From NCBI GenBank assembly GCA_947167215.1, contig CAMVHE010000002.1, forward strand, positions 1-64,000: a DNA stretch of 64,000 nucleotides, given 5' to 3'. Shown in pieces: positions 41,911-57,334 of the stretch. Each line of letters begins with the position of its first letter. Within the stretch, counting starts at the first letter, position 1. Below the pieces are notes generated by a model that was not told the origin of the DNA, made no database searches, and was given only the letters and a program-made list of their open reading frames with translations. Position numbers and translations under genes: made by a program. The stretch comes from an uncultured Clostridia bacterium (GTDB lineage: Bacteria > Bacillota > Clostridia > Christensenellales > Aristaeellaceae).

Positions 41911-42435
41911 ATGGGAGTGAGATCTTTGGAAAGTAGCGCACAGAATTCCGGCGTTAAGCCGGATTTTGAAACGCTGTATCAGCAATATGGTACGGAAGTA
42001 TTGCGAACTGCCTATTTCTATCTTGGAGATCGCGGACGTGCGGAAGATGTATGCCAGGAAGTATTTGTCAAGTACTGGGGACATGAGAAGGAAGTGCTTC
42101 CCGGAAAAGAAAAAGCCTGGCTGATGACCGTGACCATCAACCAGTGCCGGGATCTGTGGCGGAGTGCCTGGCTGAAGCGTGTGGTACTTGGACCGCCGAC
42201 CATGGAACTCATTCCCAGTGAAAAAGACATCATTGAAGAACGACAGGAAAAAGAGGAACTGATGGGAGCCGTTCAGAAGCTGCCCCAGCAGTTTCGGGAA
42301 GTGGTTCTGCTGTTTTATTATCAGGGATTTGGCATCAGTGAAGTAGCAAAGATTCTCGGGATATCGGAAGGAACGGTTGCGAGCCGGTTGTCCCGGGCAC
42401 GCAGTAAGCTGGAGAAAGCGCTGAAGGAGGTGTGA
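41911..42435 (+). CDS. ECF-type RNA polymerase sigma factor
   Basis: FETLYQQYGTEVLRTAYFYLGDRGRAEDVCQEVFVKYW; LPQQFREVVLLFYYQGFGISEVAKILGISEGTVASRLSRARSKLEKAL. Confidence 0.92.
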   Translation: MGVRSLESSAQNSGVKPDFETLYQQYGTEVLRTAYFYLGDRGRAEDVCQEVFVKYWGHEKEVLPGKEKAWLMTVTINQCRDLWRSAWLKRVVLGPPTMELIPSEKDIIEERQEKEELMGAVQKLPQQFREVVLLFYYQGFGISEVAKILGISEGTVASRLSRARSKLEKALKEV

Positions 42436-42438
42436 GAG

Positions 42439-43368
42439 ATGGAAAGCAAACTGGAAAATCTGCATGTGGTAACCGATGAAATGCTGGGCGGCATGAAGGC
42501 GGACGATGCAATGTACTGGCGTATCCGGCATCAGGCAGCTGAACGCCAGGCCGTAAACCGACGGCCTGTATACAGGAAGGGTGCCGTATATGCTCTTGCT
42601 GCTATGATCCTGGTCATGGTGGCGGTAGTTCCGCTGGTTCTGAACCGGAAGCCTTCGGTGACAAAAATCCCGGAGATTCAGACAATTGCAGCAGGCGGAC
42701 CGGATGAGACCATTTCTCCGGAAGAAAATGGGGTTGTCTCCGAATTGACGGCGACCCTTATCACGAATATTTCGGAAGGAAATACACTGTTTGAGGAAAT
42801 AGGAGAAGAGTATCCGGTTATCGTCCGGGACGGACGGGTCTATCGTATGCTCAAAAAAACCGCCGGTTTTCCAACTGGCGGAAAAGGGAACGAACTGTAT
42901 GAGATTTCCCTGTTTACCGAATACCCATCCATGGAGATTGCCATGGAGCAGACTGGCGCTTACAGCAACGTTGCATCCGTCGGTGCCAAGGTTTATGCGG
43001 CAGAAGGTCTCTCCGATCTGATGGTGGTTATTGCGGAAGTTAACGGGGAAGACCGTGCTTTCGAGAGAATCAGCTATTGCGGATTGGGACCGGGCGGACT
43101 GGGTCTGGAAGATGTGCTGGATATTCGGGACAAAGTGACCAGCATTTCCCTGGAAGGCCACAGGACGCTGGAAGGGGAAGAGGCGCAAAAAGCCATTCAG
43201 ACGCTGCTGGATGAGGCCATTCTTCAGGATGAAGACCCCGAACCCGGAAGCCAGGGACTGCGCATCACGCTGTCAGACGGCCTGACACTGCAGCTGACAT
43301 GCTCGGGTACACAGATTATCGGCTGCGGTGCCTGGTCCTGTTCACCTTTTTTTGCTCTGGTGCGTTAA
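42439..43368 (+). CDS. Putative cognate anti-sigma factor / membrane protein
   Basis: Directly after the ECF sigma gene; cytoplasmic N-terminus, one TM (AVYALAAMILVMVAVVPLVL), extracytoplasmic C-terminus. Confidence 0.7.
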   Translation: MESKLENLHVVTDEMLGGMKADDAMYWRIRHQAAERQAVNRRPVYRKGAVYALAAMILVMVAVVPLVLNRKPSVTKIPEIQTIAAGGPDETISPEENGVVSELTATLITNISEGNTLFEEIGEEYPVIVRDGRVYRMLKKTAGFPTGGKGNELYEISLFTEYPSMEIAMEQTGAYSNVASVGAKVYAAEGLSDLMVVIAEVNGEDRAFERISYCGLGPGGLGLEDVLDIRDKVTSISLEGHRTLEGEEAQKAIQTLLDEAILQDEDPEPGSQGLRITLSDGLTLQLTCSGTQIIGCGAWSCSPFFALVR

Positions 43369-45790: not shown

Positions 45791-45961
45791 ACTTCTTTGC
45801 TGAAGCATGGACAGCGCTGCTTTTCGGAGATCGATTTGGAAGCATGGGCGGCAGATCATCTGCGGCAGGGAGATTTTGCGGACCGGTACGGTGCAATCAG
45901 CCTGCTGAGAGAGAACCTGGAATGCAAAAGATTTTATAAAAGGCTAGGATGTTATCCGTGA
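45791..45961 (+). pseudogene. Possible GNAT acetyltransferase C-terminal remnant
   Basis: Open frame without start ending LLRENLECKRFYKRLGCYP*, similar to GNAT C-termini (..N..A..FYEKLGF). Confidence 0.35.
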
Positions 45962-48900
45962 ATAAGAAGAAAAGAATTGTAATCCTTGTTTTGGTGCTGT
46001 TATGCGCTGCAGTGGGAGTCTTTATGCTCCGCAGGCCGCATGCCTCGCAGGAGATGGCCGGAAATCTGGTCAGGAACGGAGATTTTTCCAGGGTGACCGA
46101 AGGAATGCCGGAAGACTGGGATACGGGCATGTGGGTGACCAGTTATGGTACTTCTTTCCTGGAAGCGACGAAGGAGGACGGCCGGGATGCTGTCCTCATC
46201 GAAAATGCTGCGGCCAATGATGCCCGTTTCGAACAGACAATTCAGGTTGCTGAGAATGCGAATTACCTGCTGACTGCTCTGGTGAAGGCTGATTCATGCC
46301 GGGGCGGGGCGGGTGCCAACCTGTCATTTCTGGGCGTTTATGGCAGCAGCGAAACGGTGTTTGATACGGAAGGAGAATGGAAAAGGCTCAGCGTTTATGC
46401 CCACACCGGAGAAGGACAGAAAGAAATAACCATTGCGGCCAGACTGGGAGGCTATGGTGCAGAGAGCATCGGACGGGCATGGTTTGCAGAGGTGTCTCTG
46501 ACACAGGTCGAAGAAGTACCGGTGGGAAGCACGGTTATAACGCTTCGGACGCCGGAGCCTGAGCAGAAAGCCGAAAACGAGGAAACGGGCGGGACAATTC
46601 TGCTTCTCTTTGCTTCTGCTGTTGCCTATGTCCTTATAGCTGCAATCATTCTGTATGCAGCCAGAGGAAGGGAAACAGGAACAGAGACTGCCGTTGTAGC
46701 GGTTTTGCTGGTACTGGCTATGGCAATGCGCTTTGTACTGGCAGTACATGTACCCGGGTATGGGGTGGATATCAACTGCTTTACTGCCTGGGCGTTTAAA
46801 ATGGCGGAAAACGGTCCCATGGGCTTCTATAAGCCGGGATATTTCTGCGATTATCCCCCGGCCTATATGCTGGTATTGGGAATGATCGGCCTTGTAGCAA
46901 AGGGACTGTCTATCCCCTATGACAGTGTTGCCATGCAGGTGCTGCTGAAGACGATTCCCATGCTTTGCGATCTTGCACTTGCCGTGATTCTTTACCTTGT
47001 GGCAGAGAAGCGGCAGGGCAGGAGGGCGGCTGCAGCATTGGCCATTCTGATCATTGTCAATCCGGCGCTTATTATCGCATCCTCCTGCTCGGGACAGATT
47101 GATGCCGTCGTTGCCGTGCAGATGGTGGCATTCCTGCTTGCAGCTTCTGCCGGTGACTGGCATGTTGCCATTCCGGTCTTTGCACTGGCGGTGCTGACCA
47201 AGCCACAGGCGGGTCTGCTGGCTCCGCTGGGCATTGCAGCACTCATCAAGGCAGTGAGAAAGTTACCGGAACAGCGAAAACATATCCTGCAGGGGCTTGG
47301 AGGCGGCGTACTGGTTACACTGCTGATAGTCATCCCGTTCAGCATCCGCCAGGAATCTCCTTTCTGGTGGCTGGTGTACAAATACCGGGATACACTGAGC
47401 AGCTACCAGTATGCAACACTGTCCACCGGAAATCTCATGTTTCTGCTGGGAGGAAACTGGAAGGAACTCGGGGAGGCCTTGGGCCCGGTGACCTTTGGGC
47501 AGATGGGCACCTTCCTGATGGTACTCTGCTTCCTGTTCGGAATACTGGTTTACTGGAAATGCGAGGGGGAGCATGCTGTCTTCCTGGCGGCGTCGGTCAC
47601 ATTGCAGATGCTCTTCGCCTTTGGCGTAAAGATGCATGAGCGCTATGTGATTCCGGCACTTGTGCTGCTGTTTGCGGCTTATATCATGAGTGGAGACATC
47701 CGGCTGCTGATATCCGGCATAGTGGCCAGCGCTGCTACATTCATCAATATCGGCATTGTTCTGGAGTATGACTATCTGATTGCCCCCAATCTGTGGGCGG
47801 GTTATCTCCTTGGCATTCTGCAGATCGGCTCCACCATACTGACCATGATGACAGCCGTAAGCCTGATGCGGGGGGAGGAACCGGTCCGGATCCTGTGGCG
47901 CAGACCGGAGGCCGCTGTCCGCCGGAAGGAAAGCGTTCCCCAAGAGGAGCAGCTGTTCCGGGATCTTTACCATCCAAAGGATGCCGGACTGCATATGAGC
48001 AGAAAAGATCTGGGGATACTGGCAGCGGTCACCCTGATCTATTCGGCCGTTGCATTCTATGACCTTGGCGCAATGAAAGCCCCCCAGACGGGGTATACGT
48101 CCTCTGCGGCAGAGGAAAGTGTAACTCTGGACCTGGGATCCGTACAGAAGGACTTCAGGATCTACTACTACGGCGGAATCTCCGACACACAGTTTTCCTT
48201 TGCAGCGTCGGAGGATGGCGTTTCCTACTCAAAGGCGGTTCCTGCGTACTTTGACCGGGGCGAATGCTTCAAGTGGCAGGCCGTTCGGACGCCGTCGGTG
48301 GATGACCGGGGCGTGGTTACCGGGGCAAGCGGCGGAATGCTGCTGTTCTCCGGACGATATGTACGCATTACCTTCAACGGGGCCGGCTCTGCCCTCTGGG
48401 AAGTGGCGGCGGTGGACGAAAACGGGAATGCACTGCCAGTGTCCGGAGCAGCTGCGGAAGGAGCGCTTTCAGGGCGGGAAGCAGATCCCAAGATGCTGGT
48501 GGATGAGCAGGACACGGTGCCGCTCAAACCAACATATCATAACAGCATGTATTTCGATGAGATATACCATGCAAGGACCGGATATGAACATGCCAACAGT
48601 CTTTCAACCTATGAAACTACGCACCCGCCGCTGGGAAAGGTCTTCATGAGCCTGTGCATCCGTGCTCTGGGCATGACGCCTTTTGCGTGGCGTCTGGCAG
48701 GCACGGTTACCGGCATTCTCATGATTCCTGCAATTTACCTGCTGGCGCTGCAGCTCCTGCATGATAAGCGTGCGGCACTGCTGTGTGCGCTGCTCATGGC
48801 CTGTGACTGCATGCATTTTACGCAGACCCGCATTGCGACTATTGACTCTTTCCCCGTATTGTTCATGATGCTCATGTTCTTTTTCATGGCCAGATGGATG

Positions 48901-49845
48901 CAGATGGATTTCTATGGGGACAGTTTCCGGAAAACCCTGGTTCCGCTGGTTTTCTCCGGGATATTCATGGGACTGGCCATTGCATCCAAGTGGATCGGGT
49001 GCTATGGTGCCGTGGGGCTTGCCGTGCTATTCTTCATCCGCTACTTCCATCTTTACCGGCAGTATCTGGCGGCAGGAAAAGCGGCAAAGGATGCAAAAAT
49101 GGAGACCGTAAGAAAGGTCTTCTGGCACCGTACGGGCGTGACAGCCGCCGTGTGCGTCGTTTCGTTTATTATCCTGCCCATCCTCATCTATGTTCTCAGC
49201 TATATTCCTTACCTTTCCTACTTTGGAAAGGTGCAGTGGAATGCTAAGACCCTGGAGCGGATATGGGATGCCCAGGTGCTGATGTTTGATTATCACAGAA
49301 ATCTGGTGGCAACCCATTATTTCGCGTCACCCTGGTATGAATGGCCGCTGATCATCAAGCCGATGTGGTATTATTCGGGCTCCTTTAATGAACCGGGAAT
49401 GGTATCCTCCATCATGGCCTTCGGAAATCCTGCAGTATGGTGGACGGGACTGGCAGCCATGATAGCCGTCTTGGGAATGAGCATCCGCTGCCGTCTGCTG
49501 CCGATGCTGGGAGTTCTGCCATACAGGGAAGAAGAAGAGGACAGCAGCTGCCTTACCGTGGTGGTGATCGGCTTCCTGTCTGCCTACCTTCCCTGGGTAC
49601 TGGTTTCCAGACTTACCTTTATCTATCATTATTTTGCCAGTGTTCCCTTTATCATTCTTTCGACAGCCATCTGTCTGAAGGCCCTTTCCCGGCGCAGGCC
49701 GCGGATGGTCAGGGCAGCGGGGATTGTGCTGGTAATTCTCTCCATTATCCTCTTTATTGCTTTCTATCCGCTGGCTTCCGGCCACGAAGTACCCAGGGGA
49801 TGGTGCGATGCAATGAACTGGTTTGACGGCTGGATGTGGTATTGA
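45949..49845 (+). CDS. Giant double GT-C protein: N-terminal beta-sandwich, GT-C glycosyltransferase, second beta-sandwich, C-terminal PMT/GT39-like mannosyltransferase
   Basis: NLVRNGDFSRVTEGMPEDWD (CBM-like); GYGVDINCFTAWAFKMAENGPMGFYKPGYFCDYPPAYMLVLG (GT-C 1); VTLDLGSVQKDFRIYYYGGISDTQFSFAASEDG (second sandwich); NSMYFDEIYHARTGYEHANSLSTYETTHPPLGKVFMSL (PMT). Confidence 0.85.
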   Translation: MLSVNKKKRIVILVLVLLCAAVGVFMLRRPHASQEMAGNLVRNGDFSRVTEGMPEDWDTGMWVTSYGTSFLEATKEDGRDAVLIENAAANDARFEQTIQVAENANYLLTALVKADSCRGGAGANLSFLGVYGSSETVFDTEGEWKRLSVYAHTGEGQKEITIAARLGGYGAESIGRAWFAEVSLTQVEEVPVGSTVITLRTPEPEQKAENEETGGTILLLFASAVAYVLIAAIILYAARGRETGTETAVVAVLLVLAMAMRFVLAVHVPGYGVDINCFTAWAFKMAENGPMGFYKPGYFCDYPPAYMLVLGMIGLVAKGLSIPYDSVAMQVLLKTIPMLCDLALAVILYLVAEKRQGRRAAAALAILIIVNPALIIASSCSGQIDAVVAVQMVAFLLAASAGDWHVAIPVFALAVLTKPQAGLLAPLGIAALIKAVRKLPEQRKHILQGLGGGVLVTLLIVIPFSIRQESPFWWLVYKYRDTLSSYQYATLSTGNLMFLLGGNWKELGEALGPVTFGQMGTFLMVLCFLFGILVYWKCEGEHAVFLAASVTLQMLFAFGVKMHERYVIPALVLLFAAYIMSGDIRLLISGIVASAATFINIGIVLEYDYLIAPNLWAGYLLGILQIGSTILTMMTAVSLMRGEEPVRILWRRPEAAVRRKESVPQEEQLFRDLYHPKDAGLHMSRKDLGILAAVTLIYSAVAFYDLGAMKAPQTGYTSSAAEESVTLDLGSVQKDFRIYYYGGISDTQFSFAASEDGVSYSKAVPAYFDRGECFKWQAVRTPSVDDRGVVTGASGGMLLFSGRYVRITFNGAGSALWEVAAVDENGNALPVSGAAAEGALSGREADPKMLVDEQDTVPLKPTYHNSMYFDEIYHARTGYEHANSLSTYETTHPPLGKVFMSLCIRALGMTPFAWRLAGTVTGILMIPAIYLLALQLLHDKRAALLCALLMACDCMHFTQTRIATIDSFPVLFMMLMFFFMARWMQMDFYGDSFRKTLVPLVFSGIFMGLAIASKWIGCYGAVGLAVLFFIRYFHLYRQYLAAGKAAKDAKMETVRKVFWHRTGVTAAVCVVSFIILPILIYVLSYIPYLSYFGKVQWNAKTLERIWDAQVLMFDYHRNLVATHYFASPWYEWPLIIKPMWYYSGSFNEPGMVSSIMAFGNPAVWWTGLAAMIAVLGMSIRCRLLPMLGVLPYREEEEDSSCLTVVVIGFLSAYLPWVLVSRLTFIYHYFASVPFIILSTAICLKALSRRRPRMVRAAGIVLVILSIILFIAFYPLASGHEVPRGWCDAMNWFDGWMWY

Positions 49846-49893: not shown

Positions 49894-50931
49894 ATGATGC
49901 AGCTTCCGAATGTTTCTATTGTTTTGCCGGTGCGCAACGAAGAGCGATATATTGAGGCTTGTGTAGCCTCAATTTTTGCCCAGGATTACCCGCAGGACAA
50001 GATGCAGGTGATTTTTGTGGATGGCCGCTCTGAAGACCGCACGGTGGAGCTGCTGAAGAAAGCGCAGACAGTACATCCGCAGATCAGCATATATGACAAT
50101 CCCAACCGGACGGTGCCCTATGCCATGAATATCGGCATTTCGCATTGCACGGCACCGGTCATGGTGCGGCTGGATGCCCACGCGGAGTATCCGCCGGACT
50201 ATGTGCGGCTGTCGGTGGAAACCCTGCTGACCCGGGAATGCGAGAATGTGGGCGGTGTGTTTGATACGCGTGGCAGGGGTTTTGTCGGAGAGGCCGTGGC
50301 AGCCATGCTTCGGACGCCGCTGGGGGTGGGCAATACCGCCTACCGGCTCAGCGATAAGGAAGAGTATGTCGATACGGTATCCTTCGGCTGCTTTCATACA
50401 GACCTGTTTGCCCGCATTGGCGGTTTTGATGAGCGCCTGACCCGCAACCAGGATAATGAAATGAACTACCGCATCCGCAAAAACGGCGGAAAGGTGCTTT
50501 TCAATCCCCGGATCCGGGTTATCTATTACTGCCGGGATACCATGAAAGGTATTCTGAAAATGGGCTTCATGAACGGCAAGTGGAATGTCATTACCATGTA
50601 TCTGGTTCCGGGATCCATGGGGGTACGGCACTTCGTGCCGCTTCTCTTTGTGCTTTCCACGATCTTCCTTGTACTGACAACCATCCTGTCCCATGGTTTC
50701 CTGCTTTTTTCCGGACTTCTTGGACTGGAATGGGGAGCGTACCTGCTTCTTGACTTTTTCTATTCCTTTGAGATTGCCAAGGAGAAAGGGCCGCGTTTCT
50801 TTCCTCTTGAGGTGATCCTTTATCCGCTGTTCCATTTTGCCTACGGATTCGGGTCCCTGCGGGGCATTACCGCTTTGCCGGCATTTATCCGGGATGAGCA
50901 CCGAAAGAAGACGGAGGGAAAGCGGAAGTGA
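49894..50931 (+). CDS. GT2 family glycosyltransferase (ExoA-like)
   Basis: VSIVLPVRNEERYIEACVASIFAQDYPQDKMQVIFVDGRSEDRT...VRLDAHAEYP...YRIRKNGGKVLFNP; C-terminal TMs. Confidence 0.9.
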   Translation: MMQLPNVSIVLPVRNEERYIEACVASIFAQDYPQDKMQVIFVDGRSEDRTVELLKKAQTVHPQISIYDNPNRTVPYAMNIGISHCTAPVMVRLDAHAEYPPDYVRLSVETLLTRECENVGGVFDTRGRGFVGEAVAAMLRTPLGVGNTAYRLSDKEEYVDTVSFGCFHTDLFARIGGFDERLTRNQDNEMNYRIRKNGGKVLFNPRIRVIYYCRDTMKGILKMGFMNGKWNVITMYLVPGSMGVRHFVPLLFVLSTIFLVLTTILSHGFLLFSGLLGLEWGAYLLLDFFYSFEIAKEKGPRFFPLEVILYPLFHFAYGFGSLRGITALPAFIRDEHRKKTEGKRK

Positions 50932-52028
50932 GAATACTGCATATCTGCCGCAATCTGGCAGGGTCCACGGTTTTCCCGCAGATGTTTGATGCCGTTGCGG
51001 AACTGGGGATTCCGCAGCTGATCTTTGCTCCCGAGGACAAACCGCAGAACCTGGGCAGGAATATTCCGGAACACGTGGAGACCCATTATGCCCTGACGCT
51101 GCGGAAAACAGACCCCATCTTCTTCTTCCGCAAATGGCAGCGCTCCCTGCCGGAAGTCCGTAAACTGGACCTGTCGGGAGTCACCATGATTCACGGGCAT
51201 ACGCTTTTTACCGACGGATCCATTGCGATGCGGCTTGCCGGGGAACTGGGAGTTCCCTACATGGTCACTGTCCGCTATTCCGACCTGGCAGCAATATGGA
51301 AATATGAACCGCACCTGCGTCCGCTGGCCAGGCAGGTGCTTCGAGGCGCTTCCCGCGTGGTCTTTTTAAATGAAAAAGCCCGCCAGCAGGTGCTGAAAGG
51401 CTGGGTGAAAGGGGAGGAAGCTGCAAGAATTTCTCCCCGGACTGCCGTGATTCCCAACGGAATTTCCGATGTCTGGCTGGACGGACAGCCGCGCAGGAAC
51501 CCGGGGGAGAAGGTTGTGGTAGGCTTTGCCGGCCTGATGAATGCCAGAAAGCGCCCGCTTGACGCGCTTTCGGCCGTGCATGCGGCAGGAGAAAAGTATG
51601 CCATGCTGGCCTGCGGAACCGGTGCGCTTGCAGAGGAAATGCAGCGGCGCATGCGTCCGGGAGACCGGTATCTGGGACGGATCAGCGGAACGGAAGCCAT
51701 GAAGGAATTCTACCGAAGCTGTGACATACTGCTTGTGCCTTCCGTAGCCGAGACTTTCGGAATGGTGTACCTTGAAGCCATGAGCCAGGGCCTTCCGGTT
51801 CTGTATACAAGAGATCAGGGCTTTGACGGCCAGTTCCCGGAAGGGGAGGTCGGCTATTCGGTGGAAAGCGGAAATATCGAAGAGCAGGCGTCCATGATCC
51901 GGAGGATTGCCGAAGGAGATTATGCCCGCATGTCCCGGAACTGTGTGGAGCATGCTTCCTCTTTCCGCTGGGAGGTAATAGCGCAGCGGTGGCGGGAACT
52001 GTATCAGTCAGTGGAGGATGAAAAATGA
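50928..52028 (+). CDS. GT4 family glycosyltransferase
   Basis: GTG start; VIPNGISDVWLDG; LLVPSVAETFGMVYLEAMSQGLPVLYT. Confidence 0.88.
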   Translation: MRILHICRNLAGSTVFPQMFDAVAELGIPQLIFAPEDKPQNLGRNIPEHVETHYALTLRKTDPIFFFRKWQRSLPEVRKLDLSGVTMIHGHTLFTDGSIAMRLAGELGVPYMVTVRYSDLAAIWKYEPHLRPLARQVLRGASRVVFLNEKARQQVLKGWVKGEEAARISPRTAVIPNGISDVWLDGQPRRNPGEKVVVGFAGLMNARKRPLDALSAVHAAGEKYAMLACGTGALAEEMQRRMRPGDRYLGRISGTEAMKEFYRSCDILLVPSVAETFGMVYLEAMSQGLPVLYTRDQGFDGQFPEGEVGYSVESGNIEEQASMIRRIAEGDYARMSRNCVEHASSFRWEVIAQRWRELYQSVEDEK

Positions 52029-53239
52029 GTACATATCGCATACTCATGATGATCCATCGGCTGGATGATGCCTCTCCTTACTGTTTTTTTGTTCATGAAC
52101 AGGCGAAAGCTCTGCGGGAGATGGGACATGACGTAGTGGTGATTTCTCCCGTGTGCGAGATGCCTCTGGCGGGGCTTCTGGGAAGGCGTTCTCCGGTTTT
52201 TGAAAGGACGCCTGAAAAGGATGTGCTGGATGGCATTCCCATCTATTTCCCCCGCTGTCACACCTATGGAAACCGGGCGGAACGGATACTGGGCGGCAGC
52301 CTGATGGCCCGGGCGATTCTGCCGATTGCCAGAAGACTGCATGCAGAAAAGCCTTTTGACCTGATCCATGCACATATGCTGGACAGAGACGGGCATGCGG
52401 GGCTGCTGGTGGGAAAAAAGCTGCACCTGCCGGTTGCCCTGACCGTCCACGGGACGGATGTCCTTCACTATTTTGAACCGGGGAAAAAACCGCTTCCCCG
52501 CAATGCGGCAATTGCCGCGGAAGTAGATGCCCTGATGGCGGTTTCCTCCAGTCTGATGAAACGGGTGCAGCCCTACAGGGCCGCGGATGCGATCTCCGAA
52601 GTGGTGCCAAACGGTGTGGACCTTTCCCTGGTACCCGATAAAACGAAGAACCGTCCGGGGGCCATTGTTTCCATCGGAACGCTGAAAGAGCGCAAATGCA
52701 TGGACCGGACAATCGATGCATTTGCACACCTGGCGCCGGATTATCCCTCTGCAACGCTCAAGATTGTCGGCGTTGGGGAGCTGGACGGCGTCCTGCGGGA
52801 ACAGGTGGAAAGGCTGCACATGACGGACAGAATTACTTTTACCGGAGGCATTTCGCATCCGGCGGTGCTGTCGCTTCTGGCTGACAGTGACATGATGGTT
52901 CTTCCCAGCTGGGGAGAAGGATACGGCATCGTTTATATTGAGGCCATGGCTGCAGGATGCATTGCAGTGGGTGCACAGGGAGAAGGAATCGAGGACACCA
53001 TTACGGACGGTGTCAACGGTTTTCTGATTCCTGCCGGAGATACGGCAGCAACGGAAGCTGTGATGCGGAAGGTGCTCGACAGCCCTCAGAAATATGCTGC
53101 ATTGCGGGAACGCGGCAGGCAGGATGCAAGACACCTGACCTGGCGGCGCAATGCGCAGCAGGTAACGGAGATTTATCGCAGGATGCTTGCACACTCTGCG
53201 GTCAGGGAGGATGCATATGCAAAAGAAAAAAGGCATTGA
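52025..53239 (+). CDS. GT4 family glycosyltransferase
   Basis: LIHAHMLDRDGHAGLLVGKKLHLPVALTVHGTD; VVPNGVDLSLV; MVLPSWGEGYGIVYIEAMAAGCIAVGAQGEGIED. Confidence 0.9.
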   Translation: MSTYRILMMIHRLDDASPYCFFVHEQAKALREMGHDVVVISPVCEMPLAGLLGRRSPVFERTPEKDVLDGIPIYFPRCHTYGNRAERILGGSLMARAILPIARRLHAEKPFDLIHAHMLDRDGHAGLLVGKKLHLPVALTVHGTDVLHYFEPGKKPLPRNAAIAAEVDALMAVSSSLMKRVQPYRAADAISEVVPNGVDLSLVPDKTKNRPGAIVSIGTLKERKCMDRTIDAFAHLAPDYPSATLKIVGVGELDGVLREQVERLHMTDRITFTGGISHPAVLSLLADSDMMVLPSWGEGYGIVYIEAMAAGCIAVGAQGEGIEDTITDGVNGFLIPAGDTAATEAVMRKVLDSPQKYAALRERGRQDARHLTWRRNAQQVTEIYRRMLAHSAVREDAYAKEKRH

Positions 53240-54533
53240 TGGTACGCGGCTGCGGGATACTTATGACCGCGTCACGGGGATATTCAATGAAATTTTTGAT
53301 GTCCGGCTGCTGACGGTGGCACTGTTTGCCCTGATCGGGTACTGTGCGCTGTTTACGCAGCGGAAGTTCCCGCTGCGGTGGATGATCTTTATCCTGTTCG
53401 GCATGATTCTGCAGGTCTTTGTGACGCTGACGGCCAGAACCGGAGACCGGCGTCCCGTGCATTTTCATAAGGGAATGGTGTTCCTGTGGTTTGCACTCCA
53501 CATCATGATGGTGATTTCGGGACTGTTCTATCAGGACTGGCTGCCGGAGAGCGTGCCGCTCCTGCTCTGTTATCCCGTGATTTTCTCCGTGTTTGCTTCC
53601 CGGGATGATACGGAGACATTCCGCGCCATCCTGCGGGGGGCATTCTTCGCGGTGCTTCCTTTTGTCGTCATCAGCTACATCCGGGTGCCGGTGAACATCG
53701 GGTATCCGGGCTATCGTGGCATCTTCTATGATGCCAATCCTTTCGCCATGTGCTGCATCGTTATGGCCACCAGCGGCTTCCTGCTTGCGTATGCCTTCTT
53801 TAAGGAGCAGCGGAAGAAATCCTGTATTTTCTACCTGGCCGGCGGCCTGCTGGCTTCCGTGACGCTGGTGCTGACGCTTTCCCGCTCCGGCCTGCTGGCT
53901 TTTGCCGGTGTATGCGTTATCCTGACCGGTGCAATTGTGGCAGGCACGGCAAAGAAGCCGGGAAGGTGGATTGCCCTGCTGTGCATACTGCTGGCGCTGG
54001 CCGTCGCCGGGGGCGGTTTCATGACGATGCACAAAATCCGGGAAGCCTATGAAGAGGATTACGCACTGGCGGTTTACAACCATGAAACCTATGGCAATCC
54101 TATCCTGGTGCCGAAGCCGGAAGAGCGCAGCCTGTCCATGGATGACCTGACCTCAGACCGCTGGGGCATCTGGACAACGATCCTGGAGAATCTTACCTGG
54201 AACGGGCATGAAACCTCCGTGGTGCAGGAATGGGTGGCCAAGGACGGGGCGGGGGACCGTCTGTTCAATGCGCATAATGCTTTCCTTGGCGTCACCTACA
54301 ACAACGGCGTCATTGCCGGAGTACTGCTGGTGGCGTATACGCTCATGGCCTTTATCCGGGCCTTGGGGTATTACTGGAGGAACCGGACAGAGAGCGCGTT
54401 TGCGGCAACCCCGCTGGCCTTCTGCACGGTGTTTATCCTGGTCGGCCTCTTTGAATCGGTTTACGCTCCGTTTTCCATTATCGGATGCACATATCTTCTG
54501 GTTCAGGCTCCGCTGTGGCGCATCCGTGAATAA
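53217..54533 (+). CDS. Polytopic O-antigen ligase/polymerase-like protein
   Basis: ~10-12 TMs; LTLSRSGLLAFAGVCVIL; LFNAHNAFLGVTYNNGVIAGVLLV (Wzy/WaaL C-terminal motif). Confidence 0.82.
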   Translation: MQKKKGIDGTRLRDTYDRVTGIFNEIFDVRLLTVALFALIGYCALFTQRKFPLRWMIFILFGMILQVFVTLTARTGDRRPVHFHKGMVFLWFALHIMMVISGLFYQDWLPESVPLLLCYPVIFSVFASRDDTETFRAILRGAFFAVLPFVVISYIRVPVNIGYPGYRGIFYDANPFAMCCIVMATSGFLLAYAFFKEQRKKSCIFYLAGGLLASVTLVLTLSRSGLLAFAGVCVILTGAIVAGTAKKPGRWIALLCILLALAVAGGGFMTMHKIREAYEEDYALAVYNHETYGNPILVPKPEERSLSMDDLTSDRWGIWTTILENLTWNGHETSVVQEWVAKDGAGDRLFNAHNAFLGVTYNNGVIAGVLLVAYTLMAFIRALGYYWRNRTESAFAATPLAFCTVFILVGLFESVYAPFSIIGCTYLLVQAPLWRIRE

Positions 54534-54545
54534 GAGGAAGAGCAT

Positions 54546-55574
54546 ATGGAAAAACCATTGGTTTCCATCATAATACCGGTTTATCATTCCCGCCCCTATC
54601 TGGAGGAATGCCTGTCTTCGCTCCGTTCGCAGACGCTTCGGGATATCGAGATGATCTTTGTGGACGATGCCGGCGGGGACGGATCCCTGGAATACCTGGA
54701 GGAGGCTTCCCGGGAAGATTTCCGGATCCGGGTTATTTCCTTTCCGGAAAACCGGGGGGTTTCTGTAGCCCGCAATGCTGGTATTGAAGCGGCGGCGGGA
54801 GCATATATCGGTTTCTGTGATGCAGACGACTGGGTGGAGCCGCAGATGTTCGAGAAGCTTCTGTCTGCGTGTCTGGAGAAGGATGCTGATATTTCCTTCT
54901 GCCGGGTATTCAAGGACCGGGGAGAACGATCGGAAAATGTGCCGCTGGGCTTTGACAATGGTACGGTTTTCGAAAGGGATGCCATCCGGGAAACGCTGAT
55001 TCCGGCGATGCTTGCACTCCCCAGGGACGGAAATGAGATTCCGCTGTCCGGCTATACTCCGAGAAACCTTTTCAGGCGCGAGGTCCTGGGGGAGGAGCGC
55101 TTCCGCCCGGACATCCGGTACGCCGAGGATCTGCTGTTCATTGTTTCCTGTCTTCTGCAGGCAGGGAAGGCCGTGGCGGTGGATGAGGCATATTACCATT
55201 ACAGATTTCATGCGGGCTCAGTCACCAAGCGCTACAGTCCGTATGTACCGGAATCCTTTGACCGGTCCAATGAGGCGCTGGCCGGACTGCTGTCCTCCTA
55301 TCCGGAATGCATGCGGCGCATGAATATCCGGCGCAGAAAAATGGCGGTGGACGCGGTGCGCAACTACTGCATGCAGGGCAGTCCGTACGGCCCGCTGAAA
55401 CGTCTTCATGTGGTCCGGGAATATATGAAAAGAGCAGATGTGAGGGATGCATTCAAAGGACTTGAACTCCGTAGCCTTTCCCTTCGCGCAGGGATTCGTC
55501 TTGGGCTGGTGAAGTACCGCCTTGCCATCCTGTCCTGTCTTCTTTTCTCAACAATTTTTCAAAGCCGAATGTGA
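54546..55574 (+). CDS. GT2 family glycosyltransferase
   Basis: PLVSIIIPVYHSRPYLEECLSSLRSQTLRDIEMIFVDDAGGDGSLEYLEEA...GVSVARNAGIEAAAGAYIGFCDADDWVEPQMFEKL. Confidence 0.93.
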   Translation: MEKPLVSIIIPVYHSRPYLEECLSSLRSQTLRDIEMIFVDDAGGDGSLEYLEEASREDFRIRVISFPENRGVSVARNAGIEAAAGAYIGFCDADDWVEPQMFEKLLSACLEKDADISFCRVFKDRGERSENVPLGFDNGTVFERDAIRETLIPAMLALPRDGNEIPLSGYTPRNLFRREVLGEERFRPDIRYAEDLLFIVSCLLQAGKAVAVDEAYYHYRFHAGSVTKRYSPYVPESFDRSNEALAGLLSSYPECMRRMNIRRRKMAVDAVRNYCMQGSPYGPLKRLHVVREYMKRADVRDAFKGLELRSLSLRAGIRLGLVKYRLAILSCLLFSTIFQSRM

Positions 55575-56833: not shown

Positions 56834-57334
56834 ATGGAAAAAATAGGAAAAACCCTATGGCACGGGATAGATGTGCTGGCCAGGGCAGTCATCGGCCTGA
56901 TTTCGAAGATTGCCCCCGGCGTTGGGAAAAAGTGTCTGGAACTCTGGGAAAATGAGGAACTGGTAAGCTATCTTTTCGTTGGAGTGGCCACCACCGTGGT
57001 CAATTACGTGGTCTATGTTCTGGTGACCCGCCTGGGGCATATGACATACATGGCGGGAACATGGGTGGCATGGGTCTGCGCGGTGGCCTTCGGATACTGG
57101 GCCAACAAGACTTTCGTATTCAAGACCCACTGCGACAGCGTTCCTGCACTGGTTAAGGAATGCGCCAGCTTCTTTGCTATGCGGCTGGTGTCGCTGGGCA
57201 TGGAAACTTTCCTGATGTGGCTCACGGTGGGCGTGCTCCACTGGCCGGATCTGGTCATGAAGATTGTCATCAACTTTGTGGTGATTGTATTGAATTATCT
57301 GTTTTCCAAGCTGTTTATTTTCCGAAAGAAATAA
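56834..57334 (+). CDS. GtrA-like flippase family protein
   Basis: SYLFVGVATTVVNYVVYVLVTRLG...WVAWVCAVAFGYWANKTFVF...NYLFSKLFIFRKK. Confidence 0.9.
   Translation: MEKIGKTLWHGIDVLARAVIGLISKIAPGVGKKCLELWENEELVSYLFVGVATTVVNYVVYVLVTRLGHMTYMAGTWVAWVCAVAFGYWANKTFVFKTHCDSVPALVKECASFFAMRLVSLGMETFLMWLTVGVLHWPDLVMKIVINFVVIVLNYLFSKLFIFRKK

Follow-up and report, generated by a model that had tools for sequence, protein, structure and literature searches.

Why would a single clostridial gene encode two membrane-embedded glycosyltransferases, and what might such a protein glycosylate? The question is raised by an open reading frame in a 64,000-nucleotide stretch of DNA, here called the window, which covers positions 1 to 64,000 of contig CAMVHE010000002.1 (GenBank assembly GCA_947167215.1) of an uncultured Clostridia bacterium of the family Aristaeellaceae. 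An initial annotation, made from the letters alone, had read the encoded protein as the succession of a beta-sandwich resembling a carbohydrate-binding module (CBM), a GT-C glycosyltransferase core, a second sandwich, and a core resembling protein O-mannosyltransferases (PMTs), an order that is borne out by fold, sequence-profile, and Pfam comparisons. Our analysis suggests that the protein is probably a bifunctional enzyme of protein O-glycosylation, which would use lipid-phosphate-linked sugars on the outer side of the cytoplasmic membrane and which, judged by homology, is the fused form of a gene pair found in a Caldicellulosiruptor-like locus.

The reading of the initial annotation depended on a GT-C fold in both halves, and AlphaFold models searched with Foldseek place one in each. 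The models, built from alignments of 9 to 10 rows that combine the window protein with its closest relatives, cover residues 1 to 660 (mean pLDDT 70.8, pTM 0.67) and 205 to 1298 (mean pLDDT 69.1, pTM 0.49). Both are only moderate, the relative packing of the halves is unreadable, and the packing seen in the 1094-residue model was not used because of its pTM. The Foldseek matches of core 1 in the first model are ALG3 (PDB ID 9s6r, TM-score 0.69 by target), GPI-MT-I (9wno), ALG6 (6snh), and PIG-U. The second model matches Pmt4, Pmt1-Pmt2, ALG3, GPI-MT-I, PimE, and a CBM32 domain, with Pmt4 being the top match of the C-terminal half (E value 4e-8, on a model of moderate confidence). Sequence profiles of 39 N-terminal cores and 38 C-terminal halves were compared with the PDB, where the former match GPI mannosyltransferase 1 (E value 7.8e-14) and ALG6 (6.5e-6), and the latter match Pmt1 (1.9e-22), Pmt4, and the CBM32 structure 4a42 (3.4e-5). 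Pfam matches on the window protein fall in its second half only, namely PMT (54.5 bits, cut-off 22.7), PMT_2, and PMT_4TMC (111.5 bits, cut-off 32.4).

By domain, motif, and fold, the C-terminal half is GT39/PMT-like and groups with Pmt1 and Pmt4. By fold and profile, the N-terminal half is a GT-C protein of the ALG/PIG kind, resembling PIG-M/Gpi14, ALG3, ALG6, and PimE, which use polyprenyl-phosphate-linked sugars. However, its identity to these proteins is 11 to 18%, their acceptors are glycolipids, and the N-terminal half differs from them in carrying a CBM-like domain and in being fused to a PMT. An internal duplication as the origin of the two cores was considered as well; their profiles align over 143 columns only, at 45% probability, and the groups of GT-C enzymes that they match are not the same. 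We therefore reject a recent duplication.

According to hydropathy, the first membrane core ends at about residue 640 and the second runs from about residue 916 to the C-terminus. Sandwich 2 is an insert of the PMT half, not a free domain between the two enzymes: it is located in that half's outside loop 1, after the first transmembrane helix and before the catalytic Asp-Glu (DE) pair. The C-terminal half shares with Pmt1, Pmt2, and Pmt4 of yeast and with the Mycobacterium tuberculosis PMT the fold, the PMT and PMT_4TMC domains, and the DE, R-x4-D, and R-x2-F/Y motifs. Unlike GT39 PMTs, it lacks a MIR domain, has a CBM32-like insert in loop 1, and is fused to a second GT-C core. The MIR domain of yeast PMTs belongs to a later loop; sandwiches in loop 1 occur in Emb arabinosyltransferases.

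The acidic loop motif that the initial annotation had noticed in each half is strictly conserved, and both cores of the tandem arrangement keep their motifs. Conservation was counted over 56 full-length sequences, with a wider set of 39 for core 1. In the N-terminal half, D274 is invariant in both sets (56/56 and 39/39), the PDB alignments as printed stopping short of the catalytic residue of the known enzymes. D301-Y-P-P is found in all 56, with a few diverged rows deviating in the wider set. W281, Y294, Q383, K418-P-Q, Y486, N495, and M-H563-x-R-Y are also retained, and a GQ motif is invariant. The C-terminal half retains Y-F-D870-E871-x-Y-H-x-R-T, H892-P, R961-x4-D966, K1014-W, H1116, and R1221-x2-F1224; D870-E871, R961-x4-D966, and R1221 are present in 56/56 sequences and F1224 in 54/56. 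In the M. tuberculosis PMT, D74 of the DE motif, D176 of R-x4-6-D, and R441-x2-Y444 have been functionally tested, and the R-x2-Y/F motif of PMTs lies near the donor phosphate (PMC12331936). All three tested positions have nearly or fully invariant counterparts in the C-terminal half, R441-x2-Y444 corresponding to R1221-x2-F1224. Given the conserved motifs, both halves look like working enzymes.

A hint at a protein acceptor comes from Caldicellulosiruptor bescii. Deletion of the single GT39 gene Cbes_1864 abolished all detectable protein glycosylation and destabilised the cellulase CelA; the enzyme has 556 residues with a carbohydrate-binding-like domain in loop 1, and its gene lies beside cellulase genes in the four-gene cluster Cbes_1861-1864 (PMC6151902). 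A search of the phylum turned up a C-half homologue of 565 to 566 residues in four genomes, all of one genus, where it is flanked on one side by a GH9-CBM3-GH5 cellulase (in locus L162 also by a further GH5-CBM3-GH5 protein) and on the other by an N-half homologue. This anatomy, with cellulase neighbours and a four-gene cluster, matches the published Cbes_1861-1864 locus (PMC6151902). The C-terminal half aligns nearly end to end with the 566-residue homologue, loop-1 sandwich included (hhalign E value 9.5e-79), and the N-terminal half does so with the next gene (4.4e-42). From these alignments, the pathway's second glycosyltransferase is very likely encoded by the gene that follows Cbes_1864; the parts of the study consulted do not present this adjoining gene as a partner glycosyltransferase (PMC6151902). 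The Caldicellulosiruptor-like locus differs in having two genes, C-half before N-half, and no sandwich 1, whereas the window protein is fused with the N-half first. After the N-half homologue, the two loci looked at for this also encode, in one orientation, a WG-repeat protein (L160) and a SurA/PrsA-like foldase (L160 and L162), at L160 4112-6744 and L162 4669-7311.

We therefore propose a route in which a cytoplasmic GT2 of the PgfS/GtrB/ArnC kind would load a sugar onto undecaprenyl phosphate and a GtrA-type protein would help the undecaprenyl-phosphate sugar across the membrane. The PMT-like C-terminal half would put the first sugar on Ser/Thr of secreted proteins, the PIG-M/ALG3/PimE-like N-terminal half would attach another sugar, taken from a donor of the same kind, and the two sandwiches would probably hold the acceptor close to the active sites. 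We infer this sequence of steps from family membership, because PMTs act on protein and ALG, PIG, and PimE enzymes on existing glycans. A comparable arrangement may be the pgf operon of Streptococcus mutans, where the GT2 PgfS and two GT-C-type membrane proteins serve one secreted target, the adhesin Cnm, which is partly glycosylated without PgfM2 and unglycosylated without PgfM1 (PMC5856776). In that operon, PgfM1 and PgfM2 are two distinct proteins that resemble one another. The GT2, GtrA, and GT-C gene sets in relatives of the window protein also recall multi-component transmembrane glycosylation of the CsbB-GtcA-YfhO type (PMC8035078), which has one GT-C protein and wall-polymer acceptors, whereas the window protein has two GT-C cores in one chain.

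The gene neighbourhood of relatives fits such a donor supply. Among 76 fetched class and order loci with a core, which were chosen from matches and are not independent, 23 have a PgfS/GtrB-like GT2 on the same strand within 5.5 kb, against about 0.5% expected from genome density (about 80 matches in 79 class genomes), and 14 have a GtrA gene near the core genes. The best NCBIfam model for the neighbouring GT2 is PgfS, at about 308 bits with an equivalog cut-off of 500, and ArnC is matched too. The closest versions of this GT2 (at least 54% identity) all occur in genomes that also carry the C-half. In one Clostridia family, a FAD amine-oxidase-family protein is encoded between GtrA and the PgfS-like GT2 (L106, 7806-9104), with a like-sized counterpart in L097, L107, L108, and L109; its role may lie in modifying the donor sugar, or it may have nothing to do with it. 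The features of the window are collected in Table 1. Upstream of the fused gene, positions 41911-43368 read like an extracytoplasmic function (ECF) sigma factor followed by a membrane anti-sigma factor.

Table 1. Features of the fused glycosyltransferase gene and its downstream neighbours in the window
Feature	Position	Strand	Basis
Fused dual GT-C glycosyltransferase, 1298 aa (amino acids)	45949..49845	+	Open reading frame, ATG start
N-terminal signal anchor, aa 9-27	45973..46029	+	Hydropathy 2.9; model helix 6-27
Sandwich 1, CBM4/16-like, ~aa 30-190	46036..46518	+	Foldseek to CBM16 2zey, CBM4 1gui
Transmembrane (TM) helix between sandwich 1 and core 1, aa 214-237	46588..46659	+	Hydropathy (aa 217-235), model
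GT-C core 1 (PIG-M/ALG3/ALG6/PimE-like), ~aa 246-640	46684..47868	+	Foldseek, sequence profile
D274, outside-loop-1 acid of core 1 (GYGVD)	46768..46770	+	Invariance
D301-Y-P-P304 motif, core 1	46849..46860	+	Invariance
Inter-enzyme linker, soluble, aa 641-687	47869..48009	+	Gene split point in other genomes
TM1 of PMT half, aa 688-706	48010..48066	+	Hydropathy, model
Sandwich 2, CBM32/F5-8-like, ~aa 718-850	48100..48498	+	Profile to 4a42; Foldseek 4a42, 7d29
Predicted catalytic D870-E871 of PMT half	48556..48561	+	Invariance; equals DE motif holding D74 of the M. tuberculosis PMT (PMC12331936)
PMT domain PF02366, aa 911-1083, including R961-x4-D966	48679..49197	+	Pfam
PMT_4TMC domain PF16192, aa 1102-1295, including R1221-x2-F1224	49252..49833	+	Pfam, E value 5e-32
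GT2 glycosyltransferase, adjoining fused gene	49894..50931	+	Pfam; genus synteny
Two GT4 glycosyltransferases	50928..53239	+	Pfam; genus synteny
Wzy_C/O-antigen-ligase family membrane protein	53187..54533	+	Pfam; genus synteny
Second GT2 glycosyltransferase	54546..55574	+	Pfam; genus synteny
GtrA-family candidate polyprenyl-phosphate-sugar flippase	56834..57334	+	Top-scoring GtrA match in the genome (79 bits; cut-off 26.1)

Four observations weigh against protein O-glycosylation as the function of the window protein. The fused gene heads a GT2-GT4-GT4-Wzy-GT2 cluster, which begins 48 bp after it and has the same gene order in those loci of the genus with enough downstream sequence; this arrangement would also suit a polysaccharide. 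The PgfS-like GT2 genes of the window genome lie on other contigs, the window having only the GtrA gene in reach. The C-terminal half scores 41.4 bits against the PMT equivalog model NF058602 of NCBIfam, which has a cut-off of 800, and we therefore file it as GT39/PMT-like without claiming the name protein O-mannosyltransferase. Lastly, the Caldicellulosiruptor name of the matching genomes is taken from locus anatomy, and the protein length is about 10 residues off.

On a rival view, the substrate is a secreted polysaccharide or wall polymer made by the adjacent genes, which the protein would decorate or extend, with the PMT-like half working on a glycan acceptor. The cluster is conserved within the genus, so a polymer acceptor is conceivable here, with the GtrA gene 7 kb downstream and both sandwiches resembling carbohydrate-binding modules; Gram-positive systems of GT2, GtrA, and GT-C proteins modify wall polymers such as teichoic acids and wall polysaccharides (PMC8035078). 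Outside the genus, however, the neighbours are rnhB/yifB/dprA/topA or other unrelated genes, or else PgfS/GtrA, and the cluster is therefore no part of the core function. Furthermore, the C-terminal half bears the PMT family's own motifs, and its homologue is required for protein glycosylation (PMC6151902). We consider a polymer acceptor unlikely, although it is the alternative to be kept in mind. The tie to adjacent polysaccharide genes suggested by the initial annotation thus holds inside the genus but not beyond it. Similarly, its proposal of protein O-mannosylation stands as regards O-glycosylation, through the homology of the C-terminal half to the GT39 protein of the Cbes_1864-like locus (PMC6151902), but not as regards mannose as the sugar. 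A further reading of the cluster comes from its Wzy_C member. Since this family includes protein O-oligosaccharyltransferases as well as O-antigen ligases, the adjacent cluster as a whole might serve protein glycosylation.

It could also be argued that the PMT half alone is catalytic and that the N-terminal half, like PIG-U of the GPI transamidase, is a non-catalytic partner, which would bind lipid or acceptor and stabilise the PMT half. PIG-U, a subunit and not a transferase, is indeed among the fold matches, and some loci have a C-half without a linked N-half. This is nevertheless improbable, as the N-half keeps D274, D301-Y-P-P, GQ, KPQ, and HxRY invariant in the pattern of an active site, and its top sequence matches are GPI mannosyltransferase 1 and ALG6.

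The search for the same architecture, recommended by the initial annotation, recovered the fused form in relatives within the genus, the family, and the order. Full-length homologues with 55 to 60% identity are present in 24 of 28 same-genus genomes, while the remaining four have partial matches, of which three or more lie at contig ends. The reading frame is stop-free in 23 of the 24 and interrupted by a single TAG in one. Among the records belonging to this genus are ones under the names Candidatus Ventricola and Christensenella sp. UBA4263. Versions of about 1270 to 1480 residues occur in family and order genomes, and the fused gene is also found on public contigs of metagenome-assembled genomes, which in part belong to the genomes just mentioned. 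At greater distance within the class there is a shorter fused form of about 1000 to 1130 residues without sandwich 1 but with sandwich 2. One same-genus genome has, besides its full-length gene, an extra partial copy (G008:C151:26863-29227) without most of core 1, in which sandwich 1 and the PMT half lie in separate frames.

An assembly or gene-calling artefact joining two genes, as the separate genes of many genomes and the draft state of the window's genome (204 contigs) might have suggested, has a negligible probability and is ruled out by the conserved full-length relatives in independent assemblies. The initial annotation had coupled two-gene orthologues with such an artefact; many orthologues are indeed two genes, but the fusion is real and conserved in genus, family, and order relatives.

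The 76 loci comprise 40 with the fused gene, 22 with the halves as neighbouring genes, 10 with the C-half alone, and 4 with the N-half alone, and the halves part where the fused form has its linker. Over a tree of 82 C-halves, the state "fused" has to change at least seven times, with two of these changes imposed by starred branches; the fused and the split arrangement replace each other repeatedly across the tree. One genus elsewhere in the phylum has a fused gene in L164 (3730-7551, 1273 residues) and two overlapping genes in L165 (4156-8179), a recent fusion or split. The reversed order, C-half then N-half, in the Caldicellulosiruptor-like loci means that the pair is not simply one broken gene. 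Sandwich 1 is duplicated, one per gene, in several split pairs (L072, L073, L079, L092, L096, L125, and L126) and is also seen by itself or on unfused C-half genes. Stand-alone secreted proteins of about 285 residues with one sandwich-1 domain adjoin GT-C genes in L079 (3881-4741, with a transmembrane tail), L122 (4838-5686), L123 (7420-8271), and L168 (2227-3078).

More broadly, the protein could be a one-chain assembly line, in which an initiating enzyme of PMT type and an extending one of ALG/PIG type, both equipped with a carbohydrate-binding-like module, would build a glycan of at least two sugars on secreted proteins, and the GT-C pair, fused or split, could form with a PgfS-like GT2 and GtrA a general O-glycosylation system of Clostridia, cellulases included. 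We put this forward tentatively, with chances slightly short of even. A literature search for dual GT-C fusions found none described. The component parts are of known kinds; the fusion of two such distant GT-C types, the combination with two carbohydrate-binding-like inserts, and the spread of fused and split forms over Clostridia are undescribed in the literature searched. The pair would represent a widespread clostridial form of protein-glycosylation machine, of which only one half had previously been tested. Clostridia secrete glycosylated cellulases and surface proteins, but what the literature found says about the pathway comes from a single deletion mutant. Both the fusion and the recurrent gene pair point to likely further components, namely a second glycosyltransferase (encoded next to Cbes_1864, with counterparts elsewhere), a donor maker, and a flippase, and would thereby open the pathway to tests in species that can be cultured and genetically manipulated.

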